IMG/VR virus record: IMGVR_UViG_3300042989_000002
Location: 1 to 24,031 of that record
Direction: 5' to 3' (one strand)
DNA from: a virus
Length of the DNA: 24,031 nt
Positions within the stretch are counted from its first letter, which is position 1. Every line of letters begins with the position of its first letter. Positions 63-21,287 of the stretch are shown piece by piece. Position numbers and translations under genes: made by a program. The notes below the pieces were generated by a model. That model worked only from the letters and a program-made list of their open reading frames with translations, did not search any database and was not told where the DNA came from.

Positions 63-124
63 TTTGCTTTCTCTCTGTTTGGTTGATGGAATGACTATAA
101 ATCACTTTGACGGACTGGTCAACA
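31..124. repeat. 94-bp perfect direct repeat, copy 1 (gene start plus promoter)
   Basis: Every base from 31 to 124 is the same as 17586 to 17679. The block holds the first codons of the alanine-rich gene, its ribosome-binding leader, the -10 box and the palindromic -35/operator. Sequence diverges outside both ends, so the promoter has been copied or converted together with the gene start. Confidence 0.95.
94..122 (-). promoter_or_regulatory. Minus-strand sigma70 promoter with palindromic operator, copy 1
   Basis: Read on the minus strand: -35 TTGACC at 122-117, a 17-nt spacer, and -10 TATAGT at 99-94. The -35 box is one half of the inverted repeat TTGAC-N6-GTCAA (107-122); the second half lies in the spacer, where a dimeric regulator would block or aid RNA polymerase. 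Five further copies with the same geometry are at 1986, 10124, 10281, 17649 and 21288. It drives the alanine-rich gene at the left edge. Confidence 0.75.
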
Positions 125-607: not shown

Positions 608-614
608 TCATCTA

Positions 615-764: not shown

Positions 765-831
765 ATCTTACCTCTGCTGGTTTAGGTTGTTCACCGTTTT
801 CTCGAATGATTCGAGTAGCGGTACAATATTA

Positions 832-1005: not shown

Positions 1006-1006
1006 A

Positions 1007-1948: not shown

Positions 1949-1985
1949 CTCTCACTTACTCCGGTTATTTGCTCTCAGTGATTCA

Positions 1986-3672: not shown

Positions 3673-3710
3673 TAAACTGGCAATGATTGCAATCAATTGA
3701 GGTTACCTAA

Positions 3711-4853
3711 ATGTCATATCCAGCGGGAAATATCATCCCCATCAACGTAAGAATCTCGCCAACAGGTTTGGCTACGGCTAACTTTGCTAGTGCGATGCTA
3801 TTTGCATCAGAAGCCGAAGCGCCGGTTAGTTTCATCAAAGATACATATCGCGAGTATTTTAATCTCAAATCGTTACAAGCTGATTTTGATGATGATACTG
3901 AGACATATAAAGCAGGTTCTAAATGGTTAGGCGGTACACCTGCAACACGTTCTCTACGTGTATGGTGTCGTGCTACAGCGGATGCTACATGGCCTGCATC
4001 ACTCGCTAAAGCGTTTGATAAAACATGGTGGTATTGGACTATGGTTACAGCCACATCATATGCTGTACCTGAGGATGTTATCGCCATTGCAGAATGGTGT
4101 GAAGCCAGTAATATCATGTTCATCAACGACCAAACAGGTGCAGCAGCTACGAAGATCCGCGACCCCGGTGCAAGTGATGACATTGCTACACAATTAACCA
4201 CTCTTGGTTATCGCCATGTGTATACAGCTTGTCATGCTACCGATTCGTACAGCGGTAATGCACTGGCTAAACATTTCGCAGCGGTGAATTATTCAGCTAC
4301 ACGTTCAACCATCACAGGCGAGTTTAAAAAGTCACCAGGTGTAGCGGCTGAGAGTTTGAGCGATACAGAATATGCAGCAATGCAGAAAGATACCAAAAAA
4401 GCTGTATTCTATACCGTTGTCGATTTGCAAGGTTCAACTGACCAAGGTCGTTGGTTAAATACTATCACTCACAGTACCTATGGTGAGTTCATTGACGATG
4501 TTGTGAACTTGGATGCCATGATCAATGGTTTGACAGTTTCATTATTTAACCTACTGGGTGGTCAGGTAACAAAATTACCACAGACTCCAGTCGGTCAGGC
4601 TATGTTAATTGGTGCCGCCCGCGCTGTAGGTGAACAATATATTCGTAATGGGTATCTGGGGCCACGTAACTACACCGACCCCGATGATGGTTTAGAAAAA
4701 TATACAGTAGGTTATGAAATTCTGACCAAGCCGGAAGATATCCTTGATATCTCTGAAGCAGATCGCGATGCTCGCAAATCAGCAGCGTTGCGTATACGTT
4801 TATTCCGTGCGGGTGCTGTACATCAAGCGCCGGTTGACGTTGACGTTTATTAA
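3711..4853 (+). CDS. DUF3383-family tail sheath protein
   Basis: The 380-residue product matches the DUF3383 type of short contractile-tail sheath protein. It has the beta-rich start (PINVRISPTGLATANFA), a central ADATWPASLAKAFDKTWWYW region, and a C-terminal part with LDAMINGLTVSLFNLL, VGQAMLIGAARAVGEQYIRNG and YLGPRNYTDPDDGLEKYTVG. The sheath surrounds the tube and contracts on infection. The GAGG ribosome site lies eight bases from the ATG. The tube gene follows after 15 bases, the usual sheath-tube pair. It sets this phage apart from siphoviruses. Confidence is high because the family, length and neighbour agree. Confidence 0.88.
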   Translation: MSYPAGNIIPINVRISPTGLATANFASAMLFASEAEAPVSFIKDTYREYFNLKSLQADFDDDTETYKAGSKWLGGTPATRSLRVWCRATADATWPASLAKAFDKTWWYWTMVTATSYAVPEDVIAIAEWCEASNIMFINDQTGAAATKIRDPGASDDIATQLTTLGYRHVYTACHATDSYSGNALAKHFAAVNYSATRSTITGEFKKSPGVAAESLSDTEYAAMQKDTKKAVFYTVVDLQGSTDQGRWLNTITHSTYGEFIDDVVNLDAMINGLTVSLFNLLGGQVTKLPQTPVGQAMLIGAARAVGEQYIRNGYLGPRNYTDPDDGLEKYTVGYEILTKPEDILDISEADRDARKSAALRIRLFRAGAVHQAPVDVDVY

Positions 4854-4868
4854 TAGGAGCCGTTAATT

Positions 4869-5282
4869 ATGGCATTGAATAATTTTAGTACGGATTTAAC
4901 GGTTGTTACTGTTAACGGACGTCAGATCACAGACTGGGGCGACACTGCAACACCTGTTACCGATGAGCCGATTGACCCACGTTCTACATTGCGTCGCGGC
5001 ATGGGTGGTAATGCGATACGTCTTGATCGTATTAACCCCGGTCGTCGGGTTAATTTATATCTGAATCCCGGTGGTACAGATAGTGCATTCATGCAGGGGT
5101 TGTTTAACTCAAACGCAAATATCACCTACACCTTCACTCAAATCGGCACGCTTGAAACAGCGGTTGGTACTGAGGGGGTAATGGTAAATGACGCATCACG
5201 TGGACGCGGCGGCACCACTATCAGCGATGACCAGTTCATTATGGAATTTAACGCGTGGACTGGTTTACGAGGTGGTAACTAA
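4869..5282 (+). CDS. DUF3277-family tail tube protein
   Basis: The 137-residue protein has the tail tube pattern of DUF3277: two opening strands around TVNGRQITDWGDTATPV, the RGMGGNAIRLDRINPGRRV segment, and strands with FMQGLFNSNANITYTF and DDQFIMEFNAW. Tube rings stack inside the sheath and carry the DNA. It directly follows the DUF3383 sheath, its usual partner, behind an AGGAG ribosome site. Its stop overlaps the next start as TAATG. Confidence 0.87.
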   Translation: MALNNFSTDLTVVTVNGRQITDWGDTATPVTDEPIDPRSTLRRGMGGNAIRLDRINPGRRVNLYLNPGGTDSAFMQGLFNSNANITYTFTQIGTLETAVGTEGVMVNDASRGRGGTTISDDQFIMEFNAWTGLRGGN

Positions 5283-5686
5283 TGTCACAGGTTAAATCGT
5301 TTACCATTGGTAACGTTACTTACAATGCGGCTATGGCATCAGCTATTCAACAGGACGAATTATTGAGCCTGTTGACAGCATCGGTTATGCAGCGCGGGTT
5401 ACAGGCTGCGTTGAGTGATACGAACATGGGCGAATATATCCTCGTTCCTATGTTCATGGCGATGCCTCAAGAAATCAAACGTCAAGTTGCCGGTAAACTA
5501 CTTCATAAAACAGTAGTGAACGGCGGTAAAGACATCATCACTGTTGAAAATTTCAGCGGTAAGATGGTTGAATACAACAAACTACTGTCGCAGTTATTGC
5601 AATGGAACCTATCCGATTTTTTTATTTGGTTGGAAAGCGCCCTAAAAGACGCCAGACCACCTCACCAAAACGACCCGGTGTTGTAA
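5282..5686 (+). CDS. Tail assembly chaperone, unshifted product (gpG-like)
   Basis: The 134-residue product lies between the tube and tape-measure genes, the conserved place of the tail assembly chaperones. It is largely helical (MASAIQQDELLSLLTASVMQ, VENFSGKMVEYNKLLSQLLQ, WNLSDFFIWLESALKDA). Its job would be to bind the tape measure and recruit tube subunits. A run of seven T at 5617-5623 sits in the right frame for -1 slippage and creates a longer partner (next entry). The start overlaps the tube stop (TAATG) with a GAGGTGG ribosome site. Sequence family is not certain; position and frameshift architecture carry the call. Confidence 0.8.
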   Translation: MSQVKSFTIGNVTYNAAMASAIQQDELLSLLTASVMQRGLQAALSDTNMGEYILVPMFMAMPQEIKRQVAGKLLHKTVVNGGKDIITVENFSGKMVEYNKLLSQLLQWNLSDFFIWLESALKDARPPHQNDPVL

Positions 5687-5841
5687 ATTGGTATATGATG
5701 CGTCCATGTACCGGGATAGTGGGATTGTGTCCACCACTTTGCACATGGGCCGAATTGAACGACGGAACATATTCACTTGCGGACGTTGAACGATTCAATC
5801 AAGCAATAGCTGAAATGGTCGCAGTAAGGGAGGCAGGGTGA
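5282..5841 (+). CDS. Tail assembly chaperone, -1 frameshift fusion (gpGT-like)
   Basis: If the ribosome slips back one base at 5617-5623, reading continues from 5623 in the -1 frame to TGA at 5839-5841. The fusion would be 186 residues: 114 from the upstream frame and 72 from the downstream one. The second frame has its own coding look (YLVGKRPKRRQTTSPKRPGV, then CTWAELNDGTYSLADVERF). Coordinates given here span join(5282..5623,5623..5841). Programmed -1 frameshifting just before the tape measure gene is established for many long-tailed phages, with both products needed for assembly. An internal ATG at 5602 is in this frame but has no clear ribosome site, so frameshifting explains the overlap better than a separate gene. 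Confidence 0.75.
5617..5623 (+). other. -1 ribosomal slippery site (T TTT TTT)
   Basis: The upstream frame reads GAT TTT TTT ATT, giving the heptamer T TTT TTT in the X-XXY-YYZ frame. After slippage the codons are TAT TTG GTT. No strong stem-loop or pseudoknot was seen directly downstream. Confidence 0.75.
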
Positions 5842-5860
5842 AAACCCTGTCTTTATTTTT
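5834..5860 (+). terminator. Terminator-like hairpin between chaperone and tape measure genes
   Basis: Stem CAGGGT (5834-5839), GAAA loop, stem ACCCTG (5844-5849), then TCTTTATTTTT. It overlaps the stop codon of the frameshift product and lies just before the ribosome site (AGGGGG) of the tape measure gene. The stem is short, so it probably lowers rather than stops downstream transcription. Confidence 0.45.
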
Positions 5861-5871
5861 AGGGGGTTATA

Positions 5872-7332
5872 ATGTCGTCAGTTTTAACACAATTTCTCAT
5901 CGGGATCGGCTGGCAGACCGATGATTTCAATAAGGGCGAACGCGAAATTAATCGCGGCCTTGAAAACGTCAAAACAAAAGTTACTGTAACTGGTGCTGCT
6001 ATGGTGGGCGCTTTTATTGGTGTGGGGAACCAGGTGGCGGATGTTGCTCATAAGGTTAACAGTATGTCTCTAAATACCAACACTTTGAACGCCAGTACAC
6101 GATTCGTCAACAACTATGGGTTAGCCTTGCGTGGCCTCGGTGGTGATGCTGGTGACGCCGTAGGAGAAATCAAAGGGGCTGAATCAGCATTAATGGATTT
6201 ACGTCTCAAAGGCGAGGCTGGGCCATTTGGTGGTGCATTGCAATTAGCAGGGGTAAGCGTTGACCCGTTGATGGTGGCTGAATCGGGCGCTGAGTTCATG
6301 CAAGAAATTGCTAAACAAATGCCGTCGCTAACAAAAGAACAACGATTATCAGTTCAACAAATCCTCAATCTTTCACCAGCCGGTGTCGAACTATTAGCTA
6401 AAGGTGAAGCAGAATATAAAAAGATCCTAAACCATGTGAATGCGGTCGCTGGGTTAACCCCTGAATTGATTTCAAACAGTAAAGAATTAAACGCTGCATT
6501 AGCGGAGACAGAATTGAGATGGGAGGGTATAAAAAACACAATTGCTCTCGGTATAATGCCGCGAATGACCGAAATGATAAAAGCCAGTAACGAATGGGTT
6601 ACCGATACCATTAAACCATTGGCTGAGAAAAGCCCCGTCAGCACTGCCGTAGGTGGTACAATGATAGGTGCTGGGGTAGGTGCTGGCGCTGCCGCCCCAT
6701 TACTTGGTGCTGTAGGTGCAACAGGTGTGGGTGCTGCCGCTGGCGCTGCCGCTGCCCCTTTGGTTATATTGGGTGCAGGTGCTGTAGCATTCAATATGGA
6801 CCAGAAAGATGTCAAAAACACCACTGGATTAGATTTACCAGAATGGATGTTTAAACCGATCGGCGAGCTGATCGATGATAGCGGAATGAAGCCGGTTGCC
6901 AATCCTTACGGACGTGGTATATACAATCCCACAATAGAAAGTTTTTCAGCTCCTGACGCAGAAAAAGCATACGAAGGTGGTATATACAATCCCACAATAG
7001 GAAGTTTTTCAGCTCCTGATGTCGAAAAAGCATACGAAGGTGGTATATATAATCCCACAATAGGAAGTTTTTCAGCTCCTGACGCAGAAAAAGCATATGA
7101 AGGTAGCGGGTATGAGGACATCAAATCAGCATTTAGTAAAATATTTAGTACAGAATCACTCGCACCTACTCAAAAAGTAGAAGTGCAGTTGAAGTCATCA
7201 AATCTACCTCCTATTCAGAATAATATTACTGTAGAATTAGACGGTAGAACATTTGAACATAAAGTGATGGAAATTAACGACAGACAAGCGCAAGGTGCGC
7301 AAGATGATTTGATGTCCACAACGGCGAGGTAA
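5872..7332 (+). CDS. Tail tape measure protein, short
   Basis: The 486-residue protein follows the chaperone genes. It has an N-terminal DUF-like start (IGWQTDDFNKGEREINRGLE), helical regions, and a glycine/alanine hydrophobic segment at about residues 255 to 305 (AVGGTMIGAGVGAG and onwards) that could cross a membrane, as in tape measures that help DNA cross the inner membrane. Residues about 349 to 411 are three tandem 21-residue repeats, GGIYNPTIGSFSAPDAEKAYE-like. Tape measure length sets tail length, and at the usual rule of about 0.15 nm per residue a tail near 70 nm is expected, an inference. The next genes are baseplate genes. Confidence 0.85.
   Translation: MSSVLTQFLIGIGWQTDDFNKGEREINRGLENVKTKVTVTGAAMVGAFIGVGNQVADVAHKVNSMSLNTNTLNASTRFVNNYGLALRGLGGDAGDAVGEIKGAESALMDLRLKGEAGPFGGALQLAGVSVDPLMVAESGAEFMQEIAKQMPSLTKEQRLSVQQILNLSPAGVELLAKGEAEYKKILNHVNAVAGLTPELISNSKELNAALAETELRWEGIKNTIALGIMPRMTEMIKASNEWVTDTIKPLAEKSPVSTAVGGTMIGAGVGAGAAAPLLGAVGATGVGAAAGAAAAPLVILGAGAVAFNMDQKDVKNTTGLDLPEWMFKPIGELIDDSGMKPVANPYGRGIYNPTIESFSAPDAEKAYEGGIYNPTIGSFSAPDVEKAYEGGIYNPTIGSFSAPDAEKAYEGSGYEDIKSAFSKIFSTESLAPTQKVEVQLKSSNLPPIQNNITVELDGRTFEHKVMEINDRQAQGAQDDLMSTTAR
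6916..7104 (+). repeat. Three tandem 63-bp repeats inside the tape measure gene
   Basis: Units at 6916-6978, 6979-7041 and 7042-7104 are in frame and nearly identical (a few substitutions, such as ATAGAAAG against ATAGGAAG and GACGCA against GATGTC). Each encodes 21 residues with the core IYNPTI-SFSAPD-EKAYEG. The near identity points to recent expansion. Confidence 0.95.
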
Positions 7333-7333
7333 T

Positions 7334-7990
7334 ATGTCAATAATCAATGTATTTACCAAGCAAGCGCCTACGCTGGCTGGACATTCGTTCGATGCGGTGC
7401 TGGAAGATTCACTCGATGCATCGGTCGAGTGGACAACCTACCCGGTTGAATCAGGCGTGAATGTCAATGACCATCGGATTATTCAACCCATCAAATGGTC
7501 GTTGACGGGTGCAATCAGCAATAACCCATTACAGACACAAATCACTGATTTCCTCGGTGGTGCATTATCTAACCTGACTAATAACCCTTACGTGGCAACT
7601 ATTGCCGGTTTATCTGCGGGATTTCTAGCTGGTAGTAATGAAACTCGCGCCAGTTCGACATTAAACCTTCTGATTAATTTAATGGTTGTTGGTGACCCGT
7701 TCGATGTGGATGCAGGTGATATTCAATTAAAAAATATGGTTATATCTCGCATTGGTCGAGTTAAAGACCCGTCGAATGAGAACGGATTAATATTTGTTGC
7801 TGACCTGCAAGAATTAATCACTCTTGACCGACTGGCAACACTTGGACAACCACGTCAATCTCAATTGCGCGATGGGGATGTCGCTAAATCGGGTATGGCT
7901 CGTATAATTAATAAAGGTCAGCAACTTACAAGTGAAGCGCCCAAAGCGGTTAGCAACGCTGCAAATGAAGTGCTAGATGGGATATTCTAA
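7334..7990 (+). CDS. Dit-like baseplate protein (distal tail N-terminal domain type)
   Basis: The 218-residue protein begins SIINVFTKQAPTLAGHSFDA and has VEWTTYPVESGVNVNDHRII followed by a strand-turn WSLTGAISN and a GDPFDVDAGDIQLKNMVIS region. The pattern of a split-barrel around the motif 'TYPVESG-x-x-x-DH' is characteristic of Dit-like proteins of simple contractile-tail baseplates. It would join the tube end to the hub. The GAGG ribosome site is within the end of the tape measure gene. The stop overlaps the next ATG as TAATG. Confidence 0.7.
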   Translation: MSIINVFTKQAPTLAGHSFDAVLEDSLDASVEWTTYPVESGVNVNDHRIIQPIKWSLTGAISNNPLQTQITDFLGGALSNLTNNPYVATIAGLSAGFLAGSNETRASSTLNLLINLMVVGDPFDVDAGDIQLKNMVISRIGRVKDPSNENGLIFVADLQELITLDRLATLGQPRQSQLRDGDVAKSGMARIINKGQQLTSEAPKAVSNAANEVLDGIF

Positions 7991-8286
7991 TGATTGAGAT
8001 ACCTCTTACAAATGGTTCGGCGAATGCACATCAAAAATTCAGCGTTCAATTAGGTGCGAATTATCTTGATTTTGAAATCAATTTTATTTCATATCTTGAT
8101 GCTCCTGCATGGACAATGAATGTAAAACGTGACGGGTATCCTCTAGTGTTAGGCGCAATGTTGGTTCCTGGCGCTGATGTCATTTCCACATATCGAGCCG
8201 GAATAGGTCGGTTGGTATTCGTTGGTGACGATGTAACATTAGATAACCTTGGTACAAATAATCATCTGGTATGGGTGGAACAATAA
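7990..8286 (+). CDS. Baseplate plug protein, cyanophage Pam3 gp18-like
   Basis: The 98-residue product is a small all-beta protein (MIEIPLTNGSANAHQKFSVQ, YLDFEINFISYLDAPAWTMN, then a DGYPLVLGAMLVPGADVIST segment). This matches the small plug protein described in the Pam3 baseplate (gp18), which sits between Dit-like and hub genes, as here. Both ends overlap neighbours as TAATG, so translation is coupled. It suggests a minimal myovirus baseplate of the Pam3 type. Confidence 0.7.
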   Translation: MIEIPLTNGSANAHQKFSVQLGANYLDFEINFISYLDAPAWTMNVKRDGYPLVLGAMLVPGADVISTYRAGIGRLVFVGDDVTLDNLGTNNHLVWVEQ

Positions 8287-9704
8287 TGACAACACGCCGC
8301 CTATGGAGCATGGATATCAACGGTAGCCCTTTCATTCTTCCATCAGACAACCGCCAATTTAGAGTTACTTTTGATGTCATTGTAACCCCCGCTGAAACAC
8401 TGAGTTTCGCTGATATCCGATTGTATAACCTTGCAAAAACGACTGAGATTACACAGAAAAAGTCTATTACTTTCCGCGCCGGTTTCACAAATGCAGTTGA
8501 TACTATTTTCAGCGGCTACGTGACAAACGTATACCGCGAACGTGAGGGGGCGAGCGTAGTCACTCGTCTACTGTGTAAATCAGGTGATGCTCGTGAGGAT
8601 AGAAACACCATAAATTCATCATACGGGCCTGGGGTTATGTTGGTTGATATATTAAAAGATCTGGCCCAGTCATGGCCGCGCCGATTAAATATTGATGAGT
8701 CTCAGTTTAACGATGTGGCACCTTTCAGTAGTGGGTATGTAGCGAATGGTGATATACCCACAATTCTTAATAAGTTAAAATACGCGTTTAATTTCGAATG
8801 GGTTCAAGATAGAGGGCAGATTGTCGTAACTCGCATTGATAAAAAACGCAACGGTGTCATATCGGAAGTTTCACAGTTTACCGGTATGATTGGTATACCG
8901 GAAGTTGCAGATGGGCCTAACGGTATAACTGTATTTGTGAGTCATACCCTCAACCCTTACTTCCGTATCAATGGTCGTATCAATGTTAAATCTGAATTTA
9001 GTACATTCAACACAGGTAACATGTTCGTCTCTGAAATGTCTGGCGATGCAAAGGCGTCTGGCGAGTATAACATATTCGCGTTGCGACACCGTGGGGATAG
9101 CTGGGGCAATCAATGGGTCAGTGAAATAGATGGTAAACGCGCGGGTACGACAACACGTACAGTAAGTACGGGTGCGTTAGTATGGGGCGGGGGTGCTAAT
9201 GTTGACCAGGCTTTCCGTGCGAAGGTGCGGGAAATCGCAGAACGTTTGGGGTTCGACCCTAATTGGTTGATGGCTATTATGGCATTTGAAACAGGTCGCA
9301 CCTTCCTTCCTTCACAAAAGAATATAGGAGGTAGCGGGGCTACTGGTTTGATTCAATTCATGCCAGCCACAGCCAAAGGATTGAAACCACCAACCACAAC
9401 AGCAAAGCTTGCTCGAATGACAGCGGTTGAACAATTGGACTACGTGGAGGCATATTTTCGACCTACTAAGTCACGCGTTCGTAATTTAGGGGATTGTTAT
9501 ATAACGGTATTAGCTGGCCCTAATTCTAGCGCAATAGGTCGCCCCGATAGTTACATAGTGTGGAGAGAGGGATCGCGTGAATATAATTCAAATAGAAACT
9601 TGGACGGTATAGACAAAACCCCAGTCAAAGGATACATAACCAGAGGTGACATGGTATACATGGTGAATAGGGAAATGATAAGTGGTCAACAATTCGCTAA
9701 ATAA
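8286..9704 (+). CDS. Baseplate hub protein fused to a lytic transglycosylase domain
   Basis: The 472-residue protein has an N-terminal hub half (gp27/gpD-like, from RRLWSMDINGSPFILPSDNR with repeated strand segments and FDVIVTPAETLSFADIRLYN) and a C-terminal SLT-type transglycosylase domain from about residue 310. The domain shows LGFDPNWLMAIMAFETGRTF with the likely catalytic Glu near residue 334, GATGLIQFMPATAKGL, and MTAVEQLDYVEAYF, the three SLT motifs. It would cleave the glycan strands of the cell wall while the tail penetrates. The ATG at 8286 overlaps the previous stop (TAATG); an in-frame ATG at 8271 would lie inside the previous gene. A minus-strand gene follows. Confidence 0.8.
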   Translation: MTTRRLWSMDINGSPFILPSDNRQFRVTFDVIVTPAETLSFADIRLYNLAKTTEITQKKSITFRAGFTNAVDTIFSGYVTNVYREREGASVVTRLLCKSGDAREDRNTINSSYGPGVMLVDILKDLAQSWPRRLNIDESQFNDVAPFSSGYVANGDIPTILNKLKYAFNFEWVQDRGQIVVTRIDKKRNGVISEVSQFTGMIGIPEVADGPNGITVFVSHTLNPYFRINGRINVKSEFSTFNTGNMFVSEMSGDAKASGEYNIFALRHRGDSWGNQWVSEIDGKRAGTTTRTVSTGALVWGGGANVDQAFRAKVREIAERLGFDPNWLMAIMAFETGRTFLPSQKNIGGSGATGLIQFMPATAKGLKPPTTTAKLARMTAVEQLDYVEAYFRPTKSRVRNLGDCYITVLAGPNSSAIGRPDSYIVWREGSREYNSNRNLDGIDKTPVKGYITRGDMVYMVNREMISGQQFAK

Positions 9705-9708
9705 AAAA

Positions 9709-9725
9709 AGCCCCATTAAGGGGCT
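9709..9725 (-). terminator. Intrinsic terminator for the NinX-like gene
   Basis: Stem AGCCCC (9709-9714), loop ATTAA, stem GGGGCT (9720-9725). The minus strand continues with a run of seven T (plus-strand A at 9703-9709), a strong terminator. The plus strand continues TTCATTCATC, so late transcription should read through. It overlaps the TAA of the minus gene. Confidence 0.75.
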
Positions 9726-10093
9726 TCATTCATCTTCAGGAATACAATCATTGCAGCGCGAAGTGGGTTTGAGTCATCGTGATAGTGAGTCGGGTTATTA
9801 TCCCAACACCAGCACCCTTCAATCATGACCCCACCAACGTGTGCGCACCATGATTTTTCAGTTTCACTCCAATTAAGGCTGATTTTATTCTCAATAATGA
9901 TGGGCCATGTTTCGTCTGGATTGTTGCAATAATCCGGCAAATAGCTAGTTTCATCCTCGATATCTCGATGAATAAGATCATCGGTCATCAAAGTTAAATT
10001 ACCTTCAATTTGTCTGTCTTGTTCAGGATGTTCCGAGCAAAGATAGACTTGAAAATTTATTTCAGGGTCAGTCATCTCGATATAGGATTCCAC
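9716..10093 (-). CDS. NinX-like (DUF2591) accessory protein
   Basis: The 125-residue protein has the C-terminal pattern of DUF2591/NinX phage proteins: DETWPIIIENKISLNW, a W-C-A-H-V strand, and NPLRAAMIVFLKM at the end. The N-terminal half is acidic (MTDPEINFQVYLCSEHPEQD). NinX-like proteins are small phage accessory proteins of unknown function, common in enterobacterial phages. The start is GTG at 10093 with a GAGG ribosome site seven bases upstream; ATG at 10075 lacks one. It is alone, antisense in the late module, with its own promoter (10124-10152) and terminator, so it looks like a moron. Confidence 0.65.
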   Translation of the reverse strand: MESYIEMTDPEINFQVYLCSEHPEQDRQIEGNLTLMTDDLIHRDIEDETSYLPDYCNNPDETWPIIIENKISLNWSETEKSWCAHVGGVMIEGCWCWDNNPTHYHDDSNPLRAAMIVFLKMNEAP

Positions 10094-10123
10094 TGTATTT
10101 CCTCTGTGTTGGTTGATGCACTT

Positions 10124-10152
10124 AATATATCAACCGTTGACGGACTAGTCAA
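10124..10152 (-). promoter_or_regulatory. Minus-strand sigma70 promoter with palindromic operator, copy 3
   Basis: Minus strand: -35 TTGACT (10152-10147), 17-nt spacer, -10 TATATT (10129-10124). The palindrome TTGACGGACTAGTCAA is at 10137-10152. The transcript would begin near 10117 and run through a leader CAACCAACACAGAGG into the NinX-like gene. Confidence 0.75.
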
Positions 10153-10167
10153 TGCTTTTATGCAAAT

Positions 10168-10192
10168 AAAAAAAAGCCCTCCGAAGAGGGCT
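10168..10192 (-). terminator. Strong intrinsic terminator of the candidate small RNA
   Basis: On the minus strand: AGCCCTC (10192-10186), TTCG loop, GAGGGCT (10181-10175), then eight T (10175-10168). On the plus strand nothing T-rich follows, so it acts only in the minus direction. Confidence 0.85.
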
Positions 10193-10274
10193 ACAACCTA
10201 CACAGAGAGGATGATACAGTTTACATAGAGCAAAGCTGTAATAGTGTTACTACGACTCGTAGCATCTTTGCTCT
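10168..10274 (-). ncRNA. Candidate antisense small RNA (5' hairpin, anti-leader segment, UUCG terminator)
   Basis: Promoter copy 4 would start transcription near 10274. The roughly 107-nt RNA begins AGAGCAAAG (10274-10266), which pairs with CUUUGCUCU (10235-10227) around a loop holding a further CUACG/CGUAG hairpin. A linker follows, then CCUCUCUGUGUAGGUUG (10210-10194), which is complementary to the leader box CAACC-(A)-ACACAGAG of the other minus-strand genes, then the terminator AGCCCUC-UUCG-GAGGGCU and eight U. No good ORF is present; an AUG at 10265 opens only 14 codons with no ribosome site. The layout is that of a bacterial trans-acting sRNA. It is an inference from sequence alone. Confidence 0.55.
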
Positions 10275-10287
10275 ATGTAAACTGTAT
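10214..10287. repeat. Perfect 22-bp inverted repeat with 30-nt centre
   Basis: Arms at 10214-10235 (ATACAGTTTACATAGAGCAA plus AG) and 10266-10287 are exact reverse complements. The right arm contains the -10 box (TACAGT) of promoter copy 4. The outer half of the repeat is not transcribed from that promoter, but the whole hairpin would form in the late plus-strand transcript that passes through, just before the spike gene. Confidence 0.95.
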
Positions 10288-10309
10288 TGCAATTTGACGT
10301 GACTGTCAA
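10281..10309 (-). promoter_or_regulatory. Minus-strand sigma70 promoter with palindromic operator, copy 4
   Basis: Minus strand: -35 TTGACA, a perfect match (10309-10304), 17-nt spacer, -10 TACAGT (10286-10281). The palindrome TTGACGTGACTGTCAA is at 10294-10309. No protein gene lies downstream before the terminator at 10168, only the small RNA candidate. Confidence 0.7.
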
Positions 10310-10345
10310 CACGTAAAACGTTAATATGTCGATAGAGGTGATTTG

Positions 10346-11029
10346 ATGATTAATAACTCAAATGTATACAGGGCAGCACATAGAGAACTATCAAAAGATA
10401 CTTACACTTCCATACCGGGACATGTGCTTGCTTTCGATCCTAAATTACAGCGCGCTCAAATTCAGATAGGCATCATCCGTGTGGATGTCAACGGTGCTGA
10501 GTTTAACCCTCCGCCGATTGTAGATGTACCAGTGCAGTTCCCCGGTGATGGTTTCTGTATGGAATTCCAGATAGACCCAAACTGCGAGGGTATAGTGCAT
10601 TTCAGCCAACGGTGTATAGATGCGTGGAAGAGTACAGGCGGTATCGCTAATAATCCTATCGGTCGCTTCCATGATATGCAGGATGCCATGTTTGTGCCGG
10701 GTGTACGCTCTCAAGGTAATGTGATACAAGGTTTCAGTAATAACGGCGTGAAACTACGTAACAAAGCCGGTACACAATATGCCTGGTTAAAGAATGACGG
10801 TTCAATAGACCTTAATAACGGTAGCGGTCATGTTACAATTGGTGCGGATGGTATAGTCAATATCAATGGTGTAATATTCGATACATTGGGTAACGTCACC
10901 ACGCCTACCATTGTTAAAGCTAAAACAGTTACAGCTACCGATTCATTAACTGTGAAAGGTAAAGAAATGAATGAGCATGTTCACAGTGGTGTAACAACGG
11001 GTACAGGTAACACGGGGAAACCGGTATGA
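10346..11029 (+). CDS. Baseplate spike protein, Gp138/gpV-like
   Basis: The 227-residue protein has an N-terminal OB-like domain (Gp138 N-terminal type: PGHVLAFDPKLQRAQIQIGI, VDVPVQFPGDGFCMEFQIDP), a beta-helical stem (LKNDGSIDLNNGSGHVTIGA) and a C-terminal GKEMNEHVHSGVTTGTGNT. The H-V-H motif is the apex of iron-binding membrane-piercing spikes. It would form the trimeric tip of the tail. The ATG at 10346 follows the AGAGGTG ribosome site; a TTG at 10343 is less likely. Its stop overlaps the next ATG (ATGA). Confidence 0.82.
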   Translation: MINNSNVYRAAHRELSKDTYTSIPGHVLAFDPKLQRAQIQIGIIRVDVNGAEFNPPPIVDVPVQFPGDGFCMEFQIDPNCEGIVHFSQRCIDAWKSTGGIANNPIGRFHDMQDAMFVPGVRSQGNVIQGFSNNGVKLRNKAGTQYAWLKNDGSIDLNNGSGHVTIGADGIVNINGVIFDTLGNVTTPTIVKAKTVTATDSLTVKGKEMNEHVHSGVTTGTGNTGKPV

Positions 11030-11373
11030 CAGTTCGTTTATTAGATGAAAATGGTGACATTGTCACACGTGGTGAACAATTCACTACTGGTCAAACTGAA
11101 ATAGCTCAAACAATTAAAACACGTTTAGCATTGTTCCTGGGTGAGTATTTCCGTGACGTCACCGATGGTACACCATGGTTTGAGCAAATCCTTGGTAAAG
11201 GTGTCGGTAATGATACTCGCGAAGCGGCATTACGTAACCGGATCGCTCGATCGCCTGGTGTCATCCGATTAACTTATTTCTCTGCTGATTTCGATATCAA
11301 TTCGCGTAAATATAGCGTGACAGCGGGTGTACTAACTCAATATGGTACGGACATGGTGACAGTCAATGGCTGA
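11026..11373 (+). CDS. Baseplate wedge protein, gp25/GPW-like
   Basis: The 115-residue protein fits the gp25-like family of sheath-initiating wedge proteins by size, by the segment TEIAQTIKTRLALFLGEYFR, by DGTPWFEQILGK in the middle, and by its place between spike and gp47-like genes. The EPR-type motif of gp25 is not clear. It would attach the first sheath ring to the baseplate. Its ends overlap both neighbours (4 and 8 bases), so translation is coupled. Confidence 0.78.
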   Translation: MTVRLLDENGDIVTRGEQFTTGQTEIAQTIKTRLALFLGEYFRDVTDGTPWFEQILGKGVGNDTREAALRNRIARSPGVIRLTYFSADFDINSRKYSVTAGVLTQYGTDMVTVNG

Positions 11374-12580
11374 GTTAACCCCACAAGGTTATAATTTAAA
11401 AACGCAAAACGAATGGTTCGATGAAGAGAAACAGCTTTATCTCGATATCGATCCACTGTGGAACCTTGACCCTTCTACACCTGATGGTTTGAAACTGGCA
11501 CATGATGCTGAGATATTCGGCTCGGTCGATGAGACATTACAGCAAGCGTATAACTCCAAAGACCCCAATAAAGCAACATTCGTAGACCTTGACACTTTAT
11601 GCGCTTTAACAGGTACAACGCGTGGCGAAGGTACGGCCGGCACAGTGTACCTCACGCTATCAGGTACAGCGGGTACTCTCATTCCAGCCGGTCGACGTGT
11701 TGAATCTGTCGCCAATGGTTCGCGTTGGGTGACAGAACAGGCGTTCACTCTTGATTCCACTGGCTCGGCCACCGTGCCGGCTATCTGTGCAACAGTGGGG
11801 GTCATACAGGCTGATATAGGCACGATAACGCGTATCGTAGATAATGTGGGAGGATGGGTAAGCGTTACTAATCTTACACCTGCCACAGTGGGGACGGATG
11901 TAGAGACTGATTCTACATTACGTGTCAAACGTGCAACAGCGGTAGGTCGCCCCGGCAATAACCAAATTGATTCAATGTTGGGTGAACTGTTTGCGGTTAA
12001 TGGTGTACGCCGTGTAAAAGTGTATGAGAATGATACGAATAGTGCAGCGGTGACGGTTGATAATCCGCATGGACTACCCGCTCACTCTATCGCCCCTGTT
12101 ATTGATGGTGGTATTGATACCGCTGTCGCGATGGCGATATACATCAAAAAGAACCCAGGTGTTTCATTGTACCAAGCGGGTACACCGGTGAGTGAAACAG
12201 TTGTATCACCCGTATATCCTACCAATTCAAAGTTAATCAAATTTAGTCGCCCTATTTATGTGGATATGGTGATTGCAATCACTTTGAAAAACGATGGTAC
12301 TTTACCGGCTGATGTTGAATTACAAATCCAAAATGCGTTTATGGAATTTGCAGCGGGGGGGCTAGTTCCAGCCCAATACGGGTTTAAGGTTCAAGGGTTT
12401 GATATTGGGGAAGATGTACCGTACAGCACGTTATTCACACCTATCAACCAAGTAATAGGGCAGTTCGGTAATAGCTACGTGCAAACAATGACAGTGAACG
12501 GTACTACAGCTAATACTACGATCTCATATAACAAGTTGTCACGTTGGACAACTTCTAATATCACGGTGACTATCGTATGA
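11366..12580 (+). CDS. Baseplate J-like / Mu gp47-like protein
   Basis: The 404-residue product matches baseplate J proteins: N-terminal SPDGLKLAHDAEIFGSVDET-like region (DPSTPDGLKLAHDAEIFGSV), a beta-sandwich with GTAGTVYLTLSGTAGTLIPA and the G-R-x-V-x-S turn, then DVETDSTLRVKRATAVGRPG, NQIDSMLGELFAVNGVRRVK, and a C-terminal helix with QIQNAFMEFAAGGLV. The protein forms the wedge that links the baseplate ring to the fibres. It overlaps the gp25-like gene (8 bases) and the DUF2612 gene (4 bases). Confidence 0.88.
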   Translation: MAELTPQGYNLKTQNEWFDEEKQLYLDIDPLWNLDPSTPDGLKLAHDAEIFGSVDETLQQAYNSKDPNKATFVDLDTLCALTGTTRGEGTAGTVYLTLSGTAGTLIPAGRRVESVANGSRWVTEQAFTLDSTGSATVPAICATVGVIQADIGTITRIVDNVGGWVSVTNLTPATVGTDVETDSTLRVKRATAVGRPGNNQIDSMLGELFAVNGVRRVKVYENDTNSAAVTVDNPHGLPAHSIAPVIDGGIDTAVAMAIYIKKNPGVSLYQAGTPVSETVVSPVYPTNSKLIKFSRPIYVDMVIAITLKNDGTLPADVELQIQNAFMEFAAGGLVPAQYGFKVQGFDIGEDVPYSTLFTPINQVIGQFGNSYVQTMTVNGTTANTTISYNKLSRWTTSNITVTIV

Positions 12581-13218
12581 ATGTTCCTGACCGCATATAT
12601 GCTCAATATCGGACAAAACCCAAGGCTGTAGCATGGTACGCAATCACCCGCACCATGAGTGGGGCAATTATTGATACCGCTGAACTGGTGCGGGTGATGT
12701 ATGATATTGACAATGCAGCAGGGGAACAATTAAATATTATCGGTCGTATAGTGGTGGTCGACAGGTCATTTATCGCTGATATTGAATTATTCCCCGGCTT
12801 ATTTGATTTAACAGACGGTGACCAGTTCGGTGATGACGAAGCTATGTTCAGCGGTTTAAGCGCCGGTGAAGATAGTCAAATGTCTGATGATTTATACCGA
12901 TTAGCAATAAAAGCCAAAATTATAAAAAACAATGGCGACGCTACAATTGAATCTATTTTACAAGGTATGAACTTTCTATTACCTAATGCCGAAGTGCTAA
13001 GGGTGACGGACGGCGAGGACATGTCTTTTAGTATTGAATTTTATGGTAGTATAACAGAATTACAACGTTGGGCGCTTTTAAATGCTAACCTTATACCAAA
13101 ACCTCAAGGTGTCAGATTTAACGGATTTCTTGAAGGTTATCAATATGTCGAATTTGGTGATGATGACGCTGAATTTGGTGATGAAACTGCCGAATTTGTC
13201 GGCTTCATAGGAGTTTAA
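12577..13218 (+). CDS. DUF2612 baseplate protein (gpI-like position)
   Basis: The 213-residue protein fits DUF2612 (NVPDRIYAQYRTKPKAVAWY, ELVRVMYDIDNAAGEQLNII, then GRIVVVDR). This family follows the J-like gene and joins the fibre to the wedge, in the place of P2 gpI. A C-terminal tail repeats a short acidic-aromatic unit (VEFGDDDAEFGDETAEFVGF). The repeat may mediate binding to the fibre, a guess. Start ATG overlaps the J gene stop (ATGA). The fibre gene follows after three bases. Confidence 0.8.
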   Translation: MNVPDRIYAQYRTKPKAVAWYAITRTMSGAIIDTAELVRVMYDIDNAAGEQLNIIGRIVVVDRSFIADIELFPGLFDLTDGDQFGDDEAMFSGLSAGEDSQMSDDLYRLAIKAKIIKNNGDATIESILQGMNFLLPNAEVLRVTDGEDMSFSIEFYGSITELQRWALLNANLIPKPQGVRFNGFLEGYQYVEFGDDDAEFGDETAEFVGFIGV

Positions 13219-13221
13219 TCA

Positions 13222-14115
13222 ATGGCTTTAAAACTTAATGAACGATACCCCGGTCGATTCAATTCACCGAATGCACAGTATCCACAGGGTTCTTTTAAAA
13301 ACCGTACAGCGCCGGGTGCTAAAGACGGTTCGTACCTCGAACAAGATTGGGCTAATGATGAGTTAGCATTTTTCTCATCATTACTATCTGGTGCGAGTAT
13401 CACCCCAAACGGCCAAGTGGATACAGTGGGAGCTAGTCAGTATTATACAGCATTGCAAAATATAGTAAAAAAGGCAGGGCTAGAGTTTAATAAAATCTTC
13501 ACTTTTCTTGTATCAGGGGCAATTCCTTTATCACATTTAGGTGGTGAAATAGTTGTAAATGGTTCTGGTGATATAGCATTGAGCCTCCCAACAACAGTGG
13601 GTCTAGACCCCGGTCTGTATGGTAAACTTATTATTTTACTGAATGCCTCTTCAGGTGACGTAACACTTACTGCTGCGGGGGCTGATAGTATTACAGCCGG
13701 CGCAGATTCTGTATCTTCAATAGTAATTAAAAGCGGTGACAGAGCAATAATCTCCCTAGCGTCGGCAAACTTCTGGCACTTAATTGGCGGTGAGGCGTCG
13801 CTTAAATATTCCGGGTCATTTAAATTTTCAAATACCCAAAATGGATATCAGAAATTACCCACTGGAATGATTTTGCAGTGGGGTATCACAAATAACGCTT
13901 TAGTCAATCCACAAACTGTAAACCTACCCGTGGCTTTTCCCAATGTTGGCCTCGTAATTGTTGCTTCGGATGCGAGCGGTTCATATACGCCGACTACAGT
14001 GATTTCGATTTGCTCAGGTCGTTACCTTTCAAACAGCCAAATTCAGGTCGCAAGCGCATATCAATACAATGTGCTTGGCTCAGATTCCATCCAGTGGTTT
14101 GCAATAGGATACTAA
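13222..14115 (+). CDS. Tail fibre protein with gp53-like C-terminal domain
   Basis: The 297-residue protein begins with a conserved adapter-like segment (LNERYPGRFNSPNAQYPQGS, FKNRTAPGAKDGSYLEQDW), carries a beta-rich shaft (GEIVVNGSGDIALSLPTTVG), and ends in a receptor-binding type domain (YQKLPTGMILQWGITNN, LPVAFPNVGLVIVASDASG, then SIQWFAIGY) like the gp53-like C-terminal domain found on fibres of enterobacterial phages. It is likely to recognise the cell surface. The AGGAG ribosome site is eight bases upstream. The downstream gene is the matching chaperone. Confidence 0.8.
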   Translation: MALKLNERYPGRFNSPNAQYPQGSFKNRTAPGAKDGSYLEQDWANDELAFFSSLLSGASITPNGQVDTVGASQYYTALQNIVKKAGLEFNKIFTFLVSGAIPLSHLGGEIVVNGSGDIALSLPTTVGLDPGLYGKLIILLNASSGDVTLTAAGADSITAGADSVSSIVIKSGDRAIISLASANFWHLIGGEASLKYSGSFKFSNTQNGYQKLPTGMILQWGITNNALVNPQTVNLPVAFPNVGLVIVASDASGSYTPTTVISICSGRYLSNSQIQVASAYQYNVLGSDSIQWFAIGY

Positions 14116-14116
14116 A

Positions 14117-14518
14117 ATGAGATATTCGTCAAGCGCATCTGGGTTTTACCCAGAAGATATTGATTATGGCAGCAATTCACCTAATGATCTGGTAACTATA
14201 TCCCATGACCTTTACTTATCCCTGCTTGAAGGGCAGTCATCAGGCAAGGTCATAACAGCAGGAGATGACGGTATGCCATTCCTGGCCGATCCGCCAGCCC
14301 CGACTGCCGCCGAACTAGTTACGGCGGCAGAGAGAAAAAAAGTGTCGATATTACAAAGTATCAATGCAAAGACACAAATATGGCAGACTCAACTTGTGCT
14401 TGGAATGATTAGCGATATAGATAAAGCGACCCTAATCATCTGGATGAAGTACGCGCAAGCTATCTGCGCTATAGACGCAAGTACTGCGCCAGATATTGAA
14501 TGGCCTATAGCCCCCTAG
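14117..14518 (+). CDS. Tail fibre assembly chaperone (Tfa-type)
   Basis: The 133-residue protein has the Tfa pattern: an N-terminal domain with SNSPNDLVTISHDLYLSLLE and GKVITAGDDGMPFLADPP, a hinge APTAAELVTAAERKK, and a helical C-terminus rich in Leu and Ile (LVLGMISDIDKATLIIWMKY) ending in APDIEWPIAP. Such proteins trimerise the fibre tip and may stay attached. It starts one base after the fibre gene, a usual pairing. Its stop codon is inside the stem of the terminator. Confidence 0.82.
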   Translation: MRYSSSASGFYPEDIDYGSNSPNDLVTISHDLYLSLLEGQSSGKVITAGDDGMPFLADPPAPTAAELVTAAERKKVSILQSINAKTQIWQTQLVLGMISDIDKATLIIWMKYAQAICAIDASTAPDIEWPIAP

Positions 14519-14530
14519 GGGGCTTTTGTT
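14509..14530 (+). terminator. Intrinsic terminator of the late tail operon
   Basis: AGCCCCC-TA-GGGGGCT (14509-14524), then TTTTGTTTT. The T-tract is on the plus strand, so it ends transcription of the tail operon. On the minus strand no T-tract follows for the Rz1 end, although that gene stops at the same point. Confidence 0.85.
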
Positions 14531-14763
14531 TTATACCAGTTCTGCCAACGTTCCAATGTATCCCGATCTTTGAGTAATACCTCACCATTATATTTAATCA
14601 CCGTGGCGGCTCGTTCAGGGTCGCCATTAGTCGCCATTAGTGGTGCAGGTACCGTGAGCATATCATTTGATACTGTCGGACATCCCAAGGGCAGCGTCGT
14701 AGAGTTCGAGCAGCCCGCTATCACGAACGCAGTCATGCACAACAACATTTTTAATCCTGTCAC
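14515..14763 (-). CDS. Rz1: o-spanin, outer membrane lipoprotein (Rz1-like)
   Basis: The 82-residue product has a signal peptide (TGLKMLLCMTAFVIAGC) with a lipobox ending I-A-G-C at residues 15 to 18, so the mature lipoprotein would be about 65 residues. It is on the same strand as, and partly nested out of frame inside, the Rz gene, which is a hallmark of spanin pairs. It would join the inner membrane Rz across the periplasm and disrupt the outer membrane after the endolysin has acted. The start is GTG at 14763 with a GAGGTGG ribosome site. Its stop is in the tail operon terminator. Confidence 0.85.
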   Translation of the reverse strand: MTGLKMLLCMTAFVIAGCSNSTTLPLGCPTVSNDMLTVPAPLMATNGDPERAATVIKYNGEVLLKDRDTLERWQNWYKTKAP

Positions 14764-15007
14764 GATATACCACCTCTTTTTTAATGACTGTTTCGGTTAT
14801 GACTTGTTGCTTCTTGGATTGTTCAGTGATTAACGCCTGATCAGACTTGTCTAGTTTGGTCTGCAATTCGTCGCGTTGTTTATATGCTTTACTTAGTGAT
14901 TCGGCTTGTTTGAGTCGTTCGGATGATACACCTGTAGACCTGCCGACGAGAAAGGAACTTGCTATAATCATCACTATCGCTACGACAGCTACCAAATATT
15001 CTTTCAT
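14663..15007 (-). CDS. Rz: i-spanin, inner membrane Rz-like
   Basis: The 114-residue protein has an N-terminal membrane helix (EYLVAVVAIVMIIASSFLV) and a long periplasmic coiled coil (SSERLKQAESLSKAYKQRDE, LQTKLDKSDQALITEQSKKQ) typical of i-spanins. The start overlaps the endolysin stop (ATGA) and the 3' part overlaps the o-spanin gene by about 100 bases in another frame. Both features fit the Rz/Rz1 arrangement. Its partner is the lipoprotein at 14515. Confidence 0.87.
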   Translation of the reverse strand: MKEYLVAVVAIVMIIASSFLVGRSTGVSSERLKQAESLSKAYKQRDELQTKLDKSDQALITEQSKKQQVITETVIKKEVVYRDRIKNVVVHDCVRDSGLLELYDAALGMSDSIK

Positions 15008-15561
15008 AGTGTCGCCCCGTCTGCGTCCATCGGTTTACTTCCTAACATGATAAGCGCCTGTTGAGGAGTGACTTTACCAAGGCAGATATCTTGCTCAATC
15101 TGGCGACGCTTCCACACTCCACTGCAATTGTTCGACTTGATAGAGCAATCCAGCTTTTTACCATTCACGGTAACAAATCGCCATTTGGGTAACTCCGCAC
15201 AGGCTTTATCATATTGACCGGACTTGAGGTATTTCCACGCTGTCGAAGATGTGGCAGCGCCTGTACCAATATTATATGTCCAGTCCAGCATAGCCAGGTG
15301 AACATTTTGAGGGAGTTCGTTCGGTAGCGATTCGAACGGTTTGTTATGTCGTGCGAGGGATTGCATCAACATATTATTACATTGTTCGGATGTAGCTTTA
15401 TCGCCCTTCTTTACACCGAGTGTTTCACCGTAACAGATGGTCCATACTTTGCCGGTATCGGGATATGCATCGGTTCGAAACCCTTCGAAACCGAATATCA
15501 ATCCCATCGCTATACCTAATATCCCACCTGTACCGCCGATTAAAATATTTCTCTTTTGCAT
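15004..15561 (-). CDS. SAR endolysin, GH24 lysozyme type
   Basis: The 185-residue protein hydrolyses the glycan strands of peptidoglycan. An N-terminal weakly hydrophobic Gly/Ala-rich segment (NILIGGTGGILGIAMGLIFG) is a signal-arrest-release domain. The GH24 catalytic triad E-8aa-D-5aa-T is exact: E26, D35 and T41 around GFEGFRTDAYPDTGKVWTIC. AMLDWTYNIGTGA is the second lysozyme motif. Start ATG at 15561 has an AAGGTG ribosome site; an upstream in-frame ATG at 15594 has none. Its stop overlaps the Rz start. No promoter of the palindromic class is seen upstream; a weak TAGAAT -10 lies nearby. Confidence 0.9.
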   Translation of the reverse strand: MQKRNILIGGTGGILGIAMGLIFGFEGFRTDAYPDTGKVWTICYGETLGVKKGDKATSEQCNNMLMQSLARHNKPFESLPNELPQNVHLAMLDWTYNIGTGAATSSTAWKYLKSGQYDKACAELPKWRFVTVNGKKLDCSIKSNNCSGVWKRRQIEQDICLGKVTPQQALIMLGSKPMDADGATL

Positions 15562-15614
15562 AATGTCACCTTGTTGTACAATTCTAAAACACATTTTAAC
15601 AGGAGTTAAATAGA

Positions 15615-15731
15615 ATGGCTAAGAAACCAGTACGTAAACCTGCAAAAGACGCTGGCGGTAACGGTAAGAGTAAAACCCCTACATCTTCATCGGATGCCGG
15701 TGGTAAAGGTCGAGTTAAGCAAAAGGCATAG
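15615..15731 (+). CDS. Small lysine-rich protein, 38 residues
   Basis: It has an ATG with AGGAG about 10 bases before it and reads MAKKPVRKPAKDAGGNGKSK, then TPTSSSDAGGKGRVKQKA to TAG. It is very basic and low in complexity, with no hydrophobic core, so disordered. Phages often carry such tiny basic proteins near lysis genes, of unknown role; nucleic acid binding is possible. The next ATG is three bases after its stop, so it is the first gene of a plus-strand unit. Confidence 0.6.
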   Translation: MAKKPVRKPAKDAGGNGKSKTPTSSSDAGGKGRVKQKA

Positions 15732-15734
15732 CAT

Positions 15735-16181
15735 ATGACTGTCCTATCAATATTACTAACCATTGCTACTTGTATCAGACCATCGATAGCGGCTATTATG
15801 TTTACAGCCGTTACTGTGGTATTTAGTGTGTTATGGGATAGTCTGGACGGTATGCTTTATTATCCGGCGGCAGCATTAGCAGATTTCACAGTGATACTCA
15901 TGTTATCATTCTTCACAGTTACCCCCGTTATCATTAGATTGTTCTGGTTATCAATATTATCAGTTCTGTTCAATGCCGGTGGGTGGTTGCTGTGGTGGGC
16001 TTATATGCTGCCGACTGTTTACAATTGGTGTTTTGGGTTACTCTATACTGTCGCAATCATTGTGATATTACTAAGGAATGATACGGATGGACTACGGTTT
16101 ATTAGACTATGTATCCGTCGGTTTAATCTTCATCGTAATAATATGTCGCGGGTTGCTGATGGTACAAAGGGCGGTAGATAA
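15735..16181 (+). CDS. Four-helix membrane protein beside lysis genes
   Basis: The 148-residue product has four hydrophobic stretches (IAAIMFTAVTVVFSVLW; AALADFTVILMLSFFTV; LFWLSILSVLFNAGGWLLWW; CFGLLYTVAIIVILL) and a basic C-terminal tail (RLCIRRFNLHRNNMSR). It lies between a small basic protein and a holin-like gene, opposite to the endolysin/spanin set. It could be a holin, an antiholin or a pinholin-associated protein, but it is not recognised as a known family. The ribosome site is AAAAGG. The next gene starts two bases after its stop. Confidence 0.6.
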   Translation: MTVLSILLTIATCIRPSIAAIMFTAVTVVFSVLWDSLDGMLYYPAAALADFTVILMLSFFTVTPVIIRLFWLSILSVLFNAGGWLLWWAYMLPTVYNWCFGLLYTVAIIVILLRNDTDGLRFIRLCIRRFNLHRNNMSRVADGTKGGR

Positions 16182-16183
16182 AT

Positions 16184-16426
16184 ATGAATTTACTAGACGG
16201 GCGAATAGGCGGCAGTGTCGCAACGGGGACGATCGGAAGCGGGATGGGGACATGGTTAGACGTGATCCCGAATGAGGTTGGTAAACTGGCAACTCTGGTC
16301 GGTATCATCCTTTCTATTACCCTCATCATTATGTACATTCGCAAAATGCGCCAAGAAGCACGTGAAAGTGATTTGAAATTAGAACTATTACGATTACAAC
16401 TGGCAAAAGAAAAAAACCCGGTGTAG
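16184..16426 (+). CDS. Holin candidate, one transmembrane helix
   Basis: The 80-residue protein has a short N-terminus, GTWLDVIPNEVGKLATLVG, then one membrane helix (IILSITLIIMYIRKM) and a long charged C-terminal helix (QEARESDLKLELLRLQLAKE). This matches the shape of HP1-like phage holins with a C-terminal cytoplasmic helix. A holin would set the time of lysis; for a SAR endolysin a pinholin is enough. Its stop lies in the loop of the terminator at 16414-16436. Confidence 0.6.
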   Translation: MNLLDGRIGGSVATGTIGSGMGTWLDVIPNEVGKLATLVGIILSITLIIMYIRKMRQEARESDLKLELLRLQLAKEKNPV

Positions 16427-16436
16427 TGCCGGGTTT
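16414..16436. terminator. Bidirectional intrinsic terminator between convergent units
   Basis: Arms AAACCCGG (16414-16421) and CCGGGTTT (16429-16436), loop TGTAGTG. The plus strand continues TTTGCTTA and the minus strand has a run of about seven T before TCTTTTG. It ends both the lysis unit and the accessory unit. Confidence 0.85.
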
Positions 16437-16444
16437 GCTTATCG

Positions 16445-16666: not shown

Positions 16667-16667
16667 C

Positions 16668-17617: not shown

Positions 17618-17679
17618 TTTGCTTTCTCTCTGTTTGGTTGATGGAATGACTATAAATCACTTTGACGGACTGGTCAACA
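17586..17679. repeat. 94-bp perfect direct repeat, copy 2 (gene start plus promoter)
   Basis: Identical to 31-124. Here the block also contains the last codons and the stop of the DNA polymerase gene. Confidence 0.95.
17649..17677 (-). promoter_or_regulatory. Minus-strand sigma70 promoter with palindromic operator, copy 5
   Basis: Minus strand: -35 TTGACC (17677-17672), 17-nt spacer, -10 TATAGT (17654-17649). The palindrome is at 17662-17677. The whole element lies in or directly after the end of the polymerase gene, whose stop TGA is at 17657-17659. It drives the alanine-rich, secreted and 73-residue genes. Confidence 0.75.
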
Positions 17680-19813: not shown

Positions 19814-19835
19814 ATCATTCTCTCTGTGTTAAATA

Positions 19836-21245: not shown

Positions 21246-21287
21246 AATTATGTTCCTTTTATCTCTGTGTTTGTGGTTGACGAGGTA

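Follow-up and report, generated by a model that had tools for sequence, protein, structure and literature searches.

A minus-strand locus in a viral DNA stretch of 24,031 nt (the window, to which positions refer unless another record is named) appears to encode a trans-acting antisense small RNA (sRNA) of the phage that blocks translation of early and replication genes. We give this reading a probability of roughly two in three; no transcript data are available, and both expression and repression are inferred. The gene structure, its conserved position, complementarity beyond chance and co-variation with the phage's own leaders were established computationally.

The sRNA would be made from its own sigma-70 promoter, guarded by a 5' hairpin and ended by an intrinsic terminator, with a segment that we call the anti-leader exposed just before the terminator. 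The proposed pairing partners of the anti-leader are the 5' leaders and Shine-Dalgarno regions of two groups of mRNAs: early mRNAs of the TTGAC-N6-GTCA promoter class, and those of replication genes (the polymerase and SSB-like genes, and primase in G001, a longer, near-identical record of 46,660 bp). Such pairing would block ribosome loading and thereby lower translation of the targets, and its purpose may be to hold back early and replication functions, or to turn them off, in the course of infection. RNA production, occlusion of ribosome sites and the shut-off role are inferences, and repression together with an early-to-late switch is inferred from the position and the partners of the pairing.

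A predicted RNA gene with its own promoter and terminator

The elements of the locus are as follows.

10281..10309, minus strand: sigma-70-type sRNA promoter, with -35 TTGACA at 10309-10304, a spacer of 17 and -10 TACAGT at 10286-10281
10309-10294, minus strand: palindrome TTGACAGTCACGTCAA, containing the -35 TTGACA of the sRNA promoter
10168..10274, minus strand: predicted small RNA of 107 nt, from promoter and terminator geometry; fold z -2.75
10227..10274, minus strand: 5' hairpin of the sRNA, from the RNA fold and an inverted repeat
10194..10215, minus strand: anti-leader AUCAUCCUCUCUGUGUAGGUUG, the segment of the RNA most complementary to the phage's own leaders
10168..10192, minus strand: intrinsic terminator AGCCCUC-UUCG-GAGGGCU plus U tail, with a seven-pair stem

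The original prediction had placed here a promoter driving an RNA of about 107 nt with a 5' hairpin and a UUCG terminator, and between the two a 17-nt segment, CCUCUCUGUGUAGGUUG (10210-10194). The layout was confirmed in the sequence, without expression data, and the segment was found with the coordinates and sequence claimed. The window has six TTGAC-N6-GTCAA sites, among them the palindrome TTGACAGTCACGTCAA of the sRNA promoter. The predicted fold of the 107-nt RNA consists of the 5' hairpin, a mostly open segment and the terminator; with six extra 5' nt and some 3' flank, the fold z is -5.7 (versus -2.75 for the 107 nt), and up to 15 stacked pairs form in the 5' hairpin if folding starts just after the -10. 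The 25-bp inverted repeat of this hairpin (10214-10238 / 10263-10287) runs into the promoter, so that the -10 TACAGT belongs to one of its arms. The open stretch between the 5' hairpin and the UUCG terminator stem reads AUCAUCCUCUCUGUGUAGGUUGUA, and the UUCG stem and U tail put the end of the RNA at ~10168. By the presence of its own promoter and an intrinsic terminator, the locus qualifies as an independent transcription unit, on sequence evidence only, and relatives have the same layout.

No known RNA family accounts for the locus among the resources consulted. Rfam 15 covariance models gave no match at gathering score for the window locus or for the loci of nine relatives; matches of isrG over the Ala-rich repeats and of SpF51 over a terminator fell below gathering. 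ARAGORN returned nothing useful, literature searches found no description of this sRNA, and the locus carries no RNA annotation in the records examined.

Complementarity to early leaders

Sites in the window with complementarity to the anti-leader are listed below, together with the promoter of the nearest target; ranks are among 119 start sites of G001.

10101..10115, minus strand: target box CAACCAACACAGAGG in the leader of the NinX-like gene (10093-9716; Pfam NinX); rank 2 of 119
19814..19829, minus strand: target box ACACAGAGAGAAUGAU at the ribosome site of the DNA polymerase gene (19813-17657); rank 1 of 119, with complementarity in 15 of 16 nt
21263..21279, minus strand: target box CAACCACAAACACAGAG in the leader of the SSB-like (DUF2815-type) gene (21245-20412); rank 13 of 119
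17626..17640, minus strand: target box CAACCAAACAGAGAG in the leader of an Ala-rich gene (17617-17006), from the complementarity scan of start sites
71..85, minus strand: target box CAACCAAACAGAGAG in the leader of a second Ala-rich gene, cut by the window edge, from the same scan
771..789, minus strand: target box CAACCUAAACCAGCAGAGG before a 49-aa ORF (764-615); rank 3 of 119, no class promoter seen
10124..10152, minus strand: class promoter (TTGACTAGTCCGTCAA, -10 TATATT) for the NinX-like gene, immediately past the sRNA terminator

All five leader boxes named earlier (NinX, two Ala-rich, SSB-like and polymerase) are present; the polymerase match proved longer than had been seen, covering 15 of 16 nt and reaching the AUG, and the match before the 49-aa ORF (771-789) is an addition. 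The primase ribosome site, which lies outside the window in G001, ranks fourth, so the best four of the 119 start sites belong to DNA polymerase, NinX, the 49-aa ORF and primase. G001 holds twelve TTGAC-N6-GTCAA sites, and the leaders that follow class promoters mostly start with AUCAACCA, followed by an (A)CAGAG or AAGAAGG box. Predicted cofold gains of the sRNA with seven leaders range from -13 to -24.5 kcal/mol, the latter with the NinX leader.

A whole-genome thermodynamic duplex scan in 40-nt windows was dropped, as G-U pairs and bulges made it too noisy and NinX came only about third after self, and scoring by complementarity with matched controls was adopted instead. By this measure, the mean complementarity of the G001 anti-leader to eight same-class leaders is 16.5, compared with 9.9 +/- 0.9 for shuffled RNA (0/60), and the top-5 start-site score is 19.6 versus 15.3 +/- 1.0 for dinucleotide shuffles (0/200). 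The pairing is thus far above that with shuffled sequences; the opposite outcome would have refuted the original prediction. A generic purine-rich Shine-Dalgarno sequence accounts for part of the pairing; however, same-class leaders score above the other ribosome sites of G001 (p = 0.0055), which indicates that the anti-leader is not only an anti-Shine-Dalgarno sequence. The z-scores against shuffles are 7.6 for G001, 3.8 for G004, 6.3 and 5.6 for G010/G019, 3.3 for Klebsiella Jedunavirus KpV79, ~2 for G002 and 7.9 for Edwardsiella phage PVN06 (Yokohamavirus). Targets encoded elsewhere and partial complementarity at ribosome sites above chance fit a trans-encoded antisense RNA.

Conservation and co-variation in relatives

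A nucleotide search of public phages with the sRNA and an exact pattern search in IMG/VR returned nothing beyond G001. Relatives were gathered via the neighbouring baseplate-spike protein, giving 25 and later 80 IMG/VR loci plus Klebsiella, Pantoea and Edwardsiella phages; further spike searches from L121 and L007 added few. In a large part of these relatives, a minus-strand RNA gene lies between the spike gene and the preceding gene, divergent from the spike, and RNA lengths run from ~50 nt to ~500 nt. The promoter sequence TTGACAGTCACGTCA has one copy per genome, always at the sRNA gene, in 8/8 relatives scanned. Class-promoter sites number 0.99 per 10 kb in loci with the RNA promoter versus 0.11 in those without (p = 1e-9), although this contrast is not independent, since it compares related loci and the count can include the RNA promoter. 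In several relatives, TTGACAGTCACGTCA (window 10294-10309) also stands upstream of a TATTAT-like plus-strand -10. The promoters of the sRNA and of the spike operon thus appear to be overlapping and back to back, and a palindrome shared by the sRNA promoter and a likely spike-operon promoter would fit joint control, which is untested.

Whole RNAs were scanned in 20-nt steps against their own leaders in G001 (107 nt), KpV79 (218 nt) and G004 (466 nt). In all three, complementarity is highest in the segment directly before the terminator, ~35-50 nt from where the terminator stem ends; G022 shows the same peak position, more weakly. The RNA of the G010 group and of G002 is little beyond anti-leader and terminator. 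In Jedunavirus and Peatvirus, the middle of the RNA is highly variable, and the anti-leader is constant in all compared records but one. The anti-leader and terminator of Edwardsiella MSW-3 are identical to those of PVN06.

Lack of conserved pairing in relatives would have spoken against the original prediction; instead, the pairing is kept in six lineages with lineage-specific co-variation, the segment just before the terminator being complementary in each to that phage's own early leaders. Pairing within the own lineage is the best of all permutations, at 1/120 for five lineages and 1/720 for six. Primase leader and RNA change together, with exact matches ACACAGAGAG in G001, ACAAGAGAGAA in G002 and ACACGGAGAG in G004 (3/720 in the exact-match permutation test). 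When 22 shared genes were tested over five lineages, co-variation was strongest for primase and polymerase and averaged near zero for the 17 non-early genes; the set-wide contrast between early and late genes is only a trend (p = 0.09). By mean target rank across lineages, the SSB-like gene and primase are the best of all shared genes, polymerase and a 330-aa early gene are also in the top five, and most structural genes fall mid-list. These permutation tests rest on few lineages, with scoring and segment choice made by the analyst, and are supportive rather than proof.

PVN06 was inspected as a prediction, after the model had been formed. The region upstream of its spike gene contains TTGACA-17-TATAGT, GCUCCUGUUGUGUUGAC and a terminator. 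Its own-leader score is 21.4 versus 10.3 +/- 1.4 for shuffles (0/300), with only three leaders passing the automatic filter. Among 160 starts, primase ranks 6, polymerase 11 and SSB 12, and the best sites are mostly those of early genes.

The pattern has exceptions. The compensatory changes that the original prediction looked for in related phages are supported by the 1/720 and 3/720 permutations but not by the close relative CWW26, which has an altered anti-leader, CUCUCUCUCCAUUG, yet leaders that mostly retain ACAGAGAGG-type boxes; taken as a natural variant test, it lends co-variation no support. In AAM22-type phages, G022, G023 and the two Vibrio-type lineages, the 3' segment does not match the leaders significantly, which means that the anti-leader role is not universal for the RNA gene. 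Taken over all its leaders, G002 gives a weak signal, and for G010 and KpV79 the scores across all starts do not differ significantly from dinucleotide shuffles. Locus L086 was considered as a further sRNA, but a spike ribosome site is the better reading.

Several other explanations were weighed. An origin of the segment by chance, as a functionless inverted duplicate of the neighbouring leader, would agree with the likeness of its reverse complement to the NinX leader over ~25 nt, including AUACAGU, and with the closeness of the two, which adjoin ~80 nt apart. We find this quite improbable, as the six lineages have different anti-leaders and those of the five others each fit their own leaders; the segment also always takes the same place between RNA promoter and terminator, and it stays constant while the adjoining RNA varies in Jedunavirus and Peatvirus. 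The box could instead act on the plus strand and belong to the spike operon, either as its ribosome site or as an element of its 5' UTR, much as CACCACACAGAGG lies ~13 nt before a spike-gene start codon in L086. However, L086 lacks the conserved sRNA promoter, and the promoter and U-tail terminator of the other relatives point to the minus strand. A suitably spaced plus-strand start codon after the box is missing in G002, G004, G010 and KpV79, and the window ATG that touches the box opens just five codons, leaving plus-strand action improbable.

A role for the RNA other than leader pairing is harder to set aside, although we still regard it as unlikely. The RNA may be real with a different main job, such as acting on a host target or serving in defence or replication as a structured RNA; the anti-leader would then be for fine-tuning only or be a generic anti-Shine-Dalgarno sequence. 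RNAs of relatives reach 200-500 nt, some have variable long hairpins or no leader match, and part of a domain is also found in temperate phages such as Enterobacter phage Tyrion; AAM22-type RNAs are conserved and structured, with 13 pairs changed on both sides, so that other or additional roles are possible there. Against this, the window, G002, the G010 group and PVN06 have little but anti-leader and terminator (in the window, plus the hairpin), and the pairing goes past the Shine-Dalgarno sequence and co-varies. Pairing might also protect or activate early mRNAs without repression, since it begins at or near the predicted mRNA 5' end and might shield them from decay. It also covers the Shine-Dalgarno sequence, however, and reaches the polymerase start codon, which normally blocks initiation, and the leaders hold little structure to open (fold energies of about -0.4 to -6 kcal/mol); protection or activation is thus very improbable.

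Known phage RNAs, significance and genome context

We file the sRNA as a variant of trans-acting antisense sRNA, with no Rfam family matched; its expression and its regulation of targets are inferred from sequence alone. Like Hfq-type trans-encoded bacterial sRNAs, it has its own promoter, a seed region, a terminator with U tail and several ribosome-site targets, but its source is a phage from an apparently lytic family, and its predicted targets form that phage's own early regulon. The CI immunity RNA of P4 is a short phage RNA complementary to leader sequences of its own early operon; it derives from the leader of that operon and, in the prophage state, brings about early transcription termination, whereas the sRNA here has a gene of its own and is predicted to pair at ribosome sites.

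Phage-encoded c4 RNA of P1/P7 blocks translation of a phage gene by pairing in the region of its ribosome site (PMC12197685), and the sRNA described here would act in a similar way. c4, however, has a role in lysogeny and immunity: its target is an antirepressor mRNA, and the complementary sequences probably lie in RNA loops. The present sRNA has its own promoter, a linear anti-leader between hairpin and terminator, and many predicted early and replication targets, and so is not of the c4 type. P22 sar RNA and lambda OOP RNA are further small antisense RNAs that phages use to control their gene expression (PMC12197685). Each is antisense to a single phage gene (antirepressor and cII, respectively), whereas the sRNA has several distant targets; no target lies opposite 10168-10274, all being elsewhere in the window or G001, so it is not of this cis-antisense type. 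Reviewed phage antisense RNAs mostly concern lysogeny, immunity or host genes (PMC12197685), and the proposed targeting of the ribosome sites of a phage's own replication regulon, with co-evolution, would contrast with these.

The phage family seems lytic, because a search of bacterial genomes with the promoter signature gave only two matches, in Polaromonas and a Bacteroidales genome. These bacteria are unrelated, and we read both matches as chance, their surroundings being uninspected. The results suggest that apparently strictly lytic phages, this one and at least five other lineages, make an RNA of their own that restrains their early genes; if true, such phages also pace their gene programme by RNA. 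A broader view, to which we give somewhat less than even odds, is that one conserved RNA gene serves as an antisense master switch for the early and replication genes of its own phage across an apparently lytic myophage family (Jedunavirus, Peatvirus, Yokohamavirus and many uncultured phages), co-evolving with a dozen leaders and with extra structured domains grafted in some branches. Direct testing is possible, as cultured isolates carry the locus (Klebsiella Jedunavirus; Edwardsiella MSW-3, PEi21 and PVN06).

Further observations concern the RNAs of relatives and the genome. L030:24501-24844 and its relatives (AAM22 type) have a long structured RNA of ~240-344 nt, in which 13 pairs show two-sided changes. 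Pantoea phage AAM22 carries a tRNA-like insert in its variable hairpin, and Rfam gave no match in two scanned relatives of this type. One domain of the Jedunavirus RNA (GGCAUAU.GCACAUGUGUC...CGGGUAGCCGGAAUGUG) recurs in temperate phages at ~78-81% identity, in Tyrion (L192:1268-1660) downstream of a promoter-like sequence, and is possibly a mobile phage RNA family.

Window 1-17679 corresponds to G001 6725-24403 (99.97%) and window 17437-24031 to G001 1-6595 (100%), with ~22 kb skipped; the join lies in the repeated Ala-rich gene, pointing to repeat-mediated deletion or assembly collapse. The Ala-rich genes (17023-17338 and 23728-23964) hold AGC/GCA-type repeats in several genome copies, the repeat stretch differing by copy. 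The noncoding stretch 2015-2278 is repeated (96-98%) at G001 32185-32488, immediately ahead of the gene for the terminase small subunit, and is possibly a shared late control region. A conserved 100-aa protein of G001 (L034:8084-8386), behind its own TTGAC-N6-GTCAA site, has no Pfam match; relatives are annotated as TetR-type regulators, and it is a candidate regulator of the promoter class. In the NinX-like gene, 207 bp (9729-9935) show 84.5% identity to the NinX gene of vB_YenM_29.18 and other temperate Yersinia phages. No other part of 9000-12000 matched public phages at the nucleotide level, and the gene was likely transferred recently. Three direct repeats with 63-bp spacing lie at 6907-7104, inside a probable tape-measure gene.
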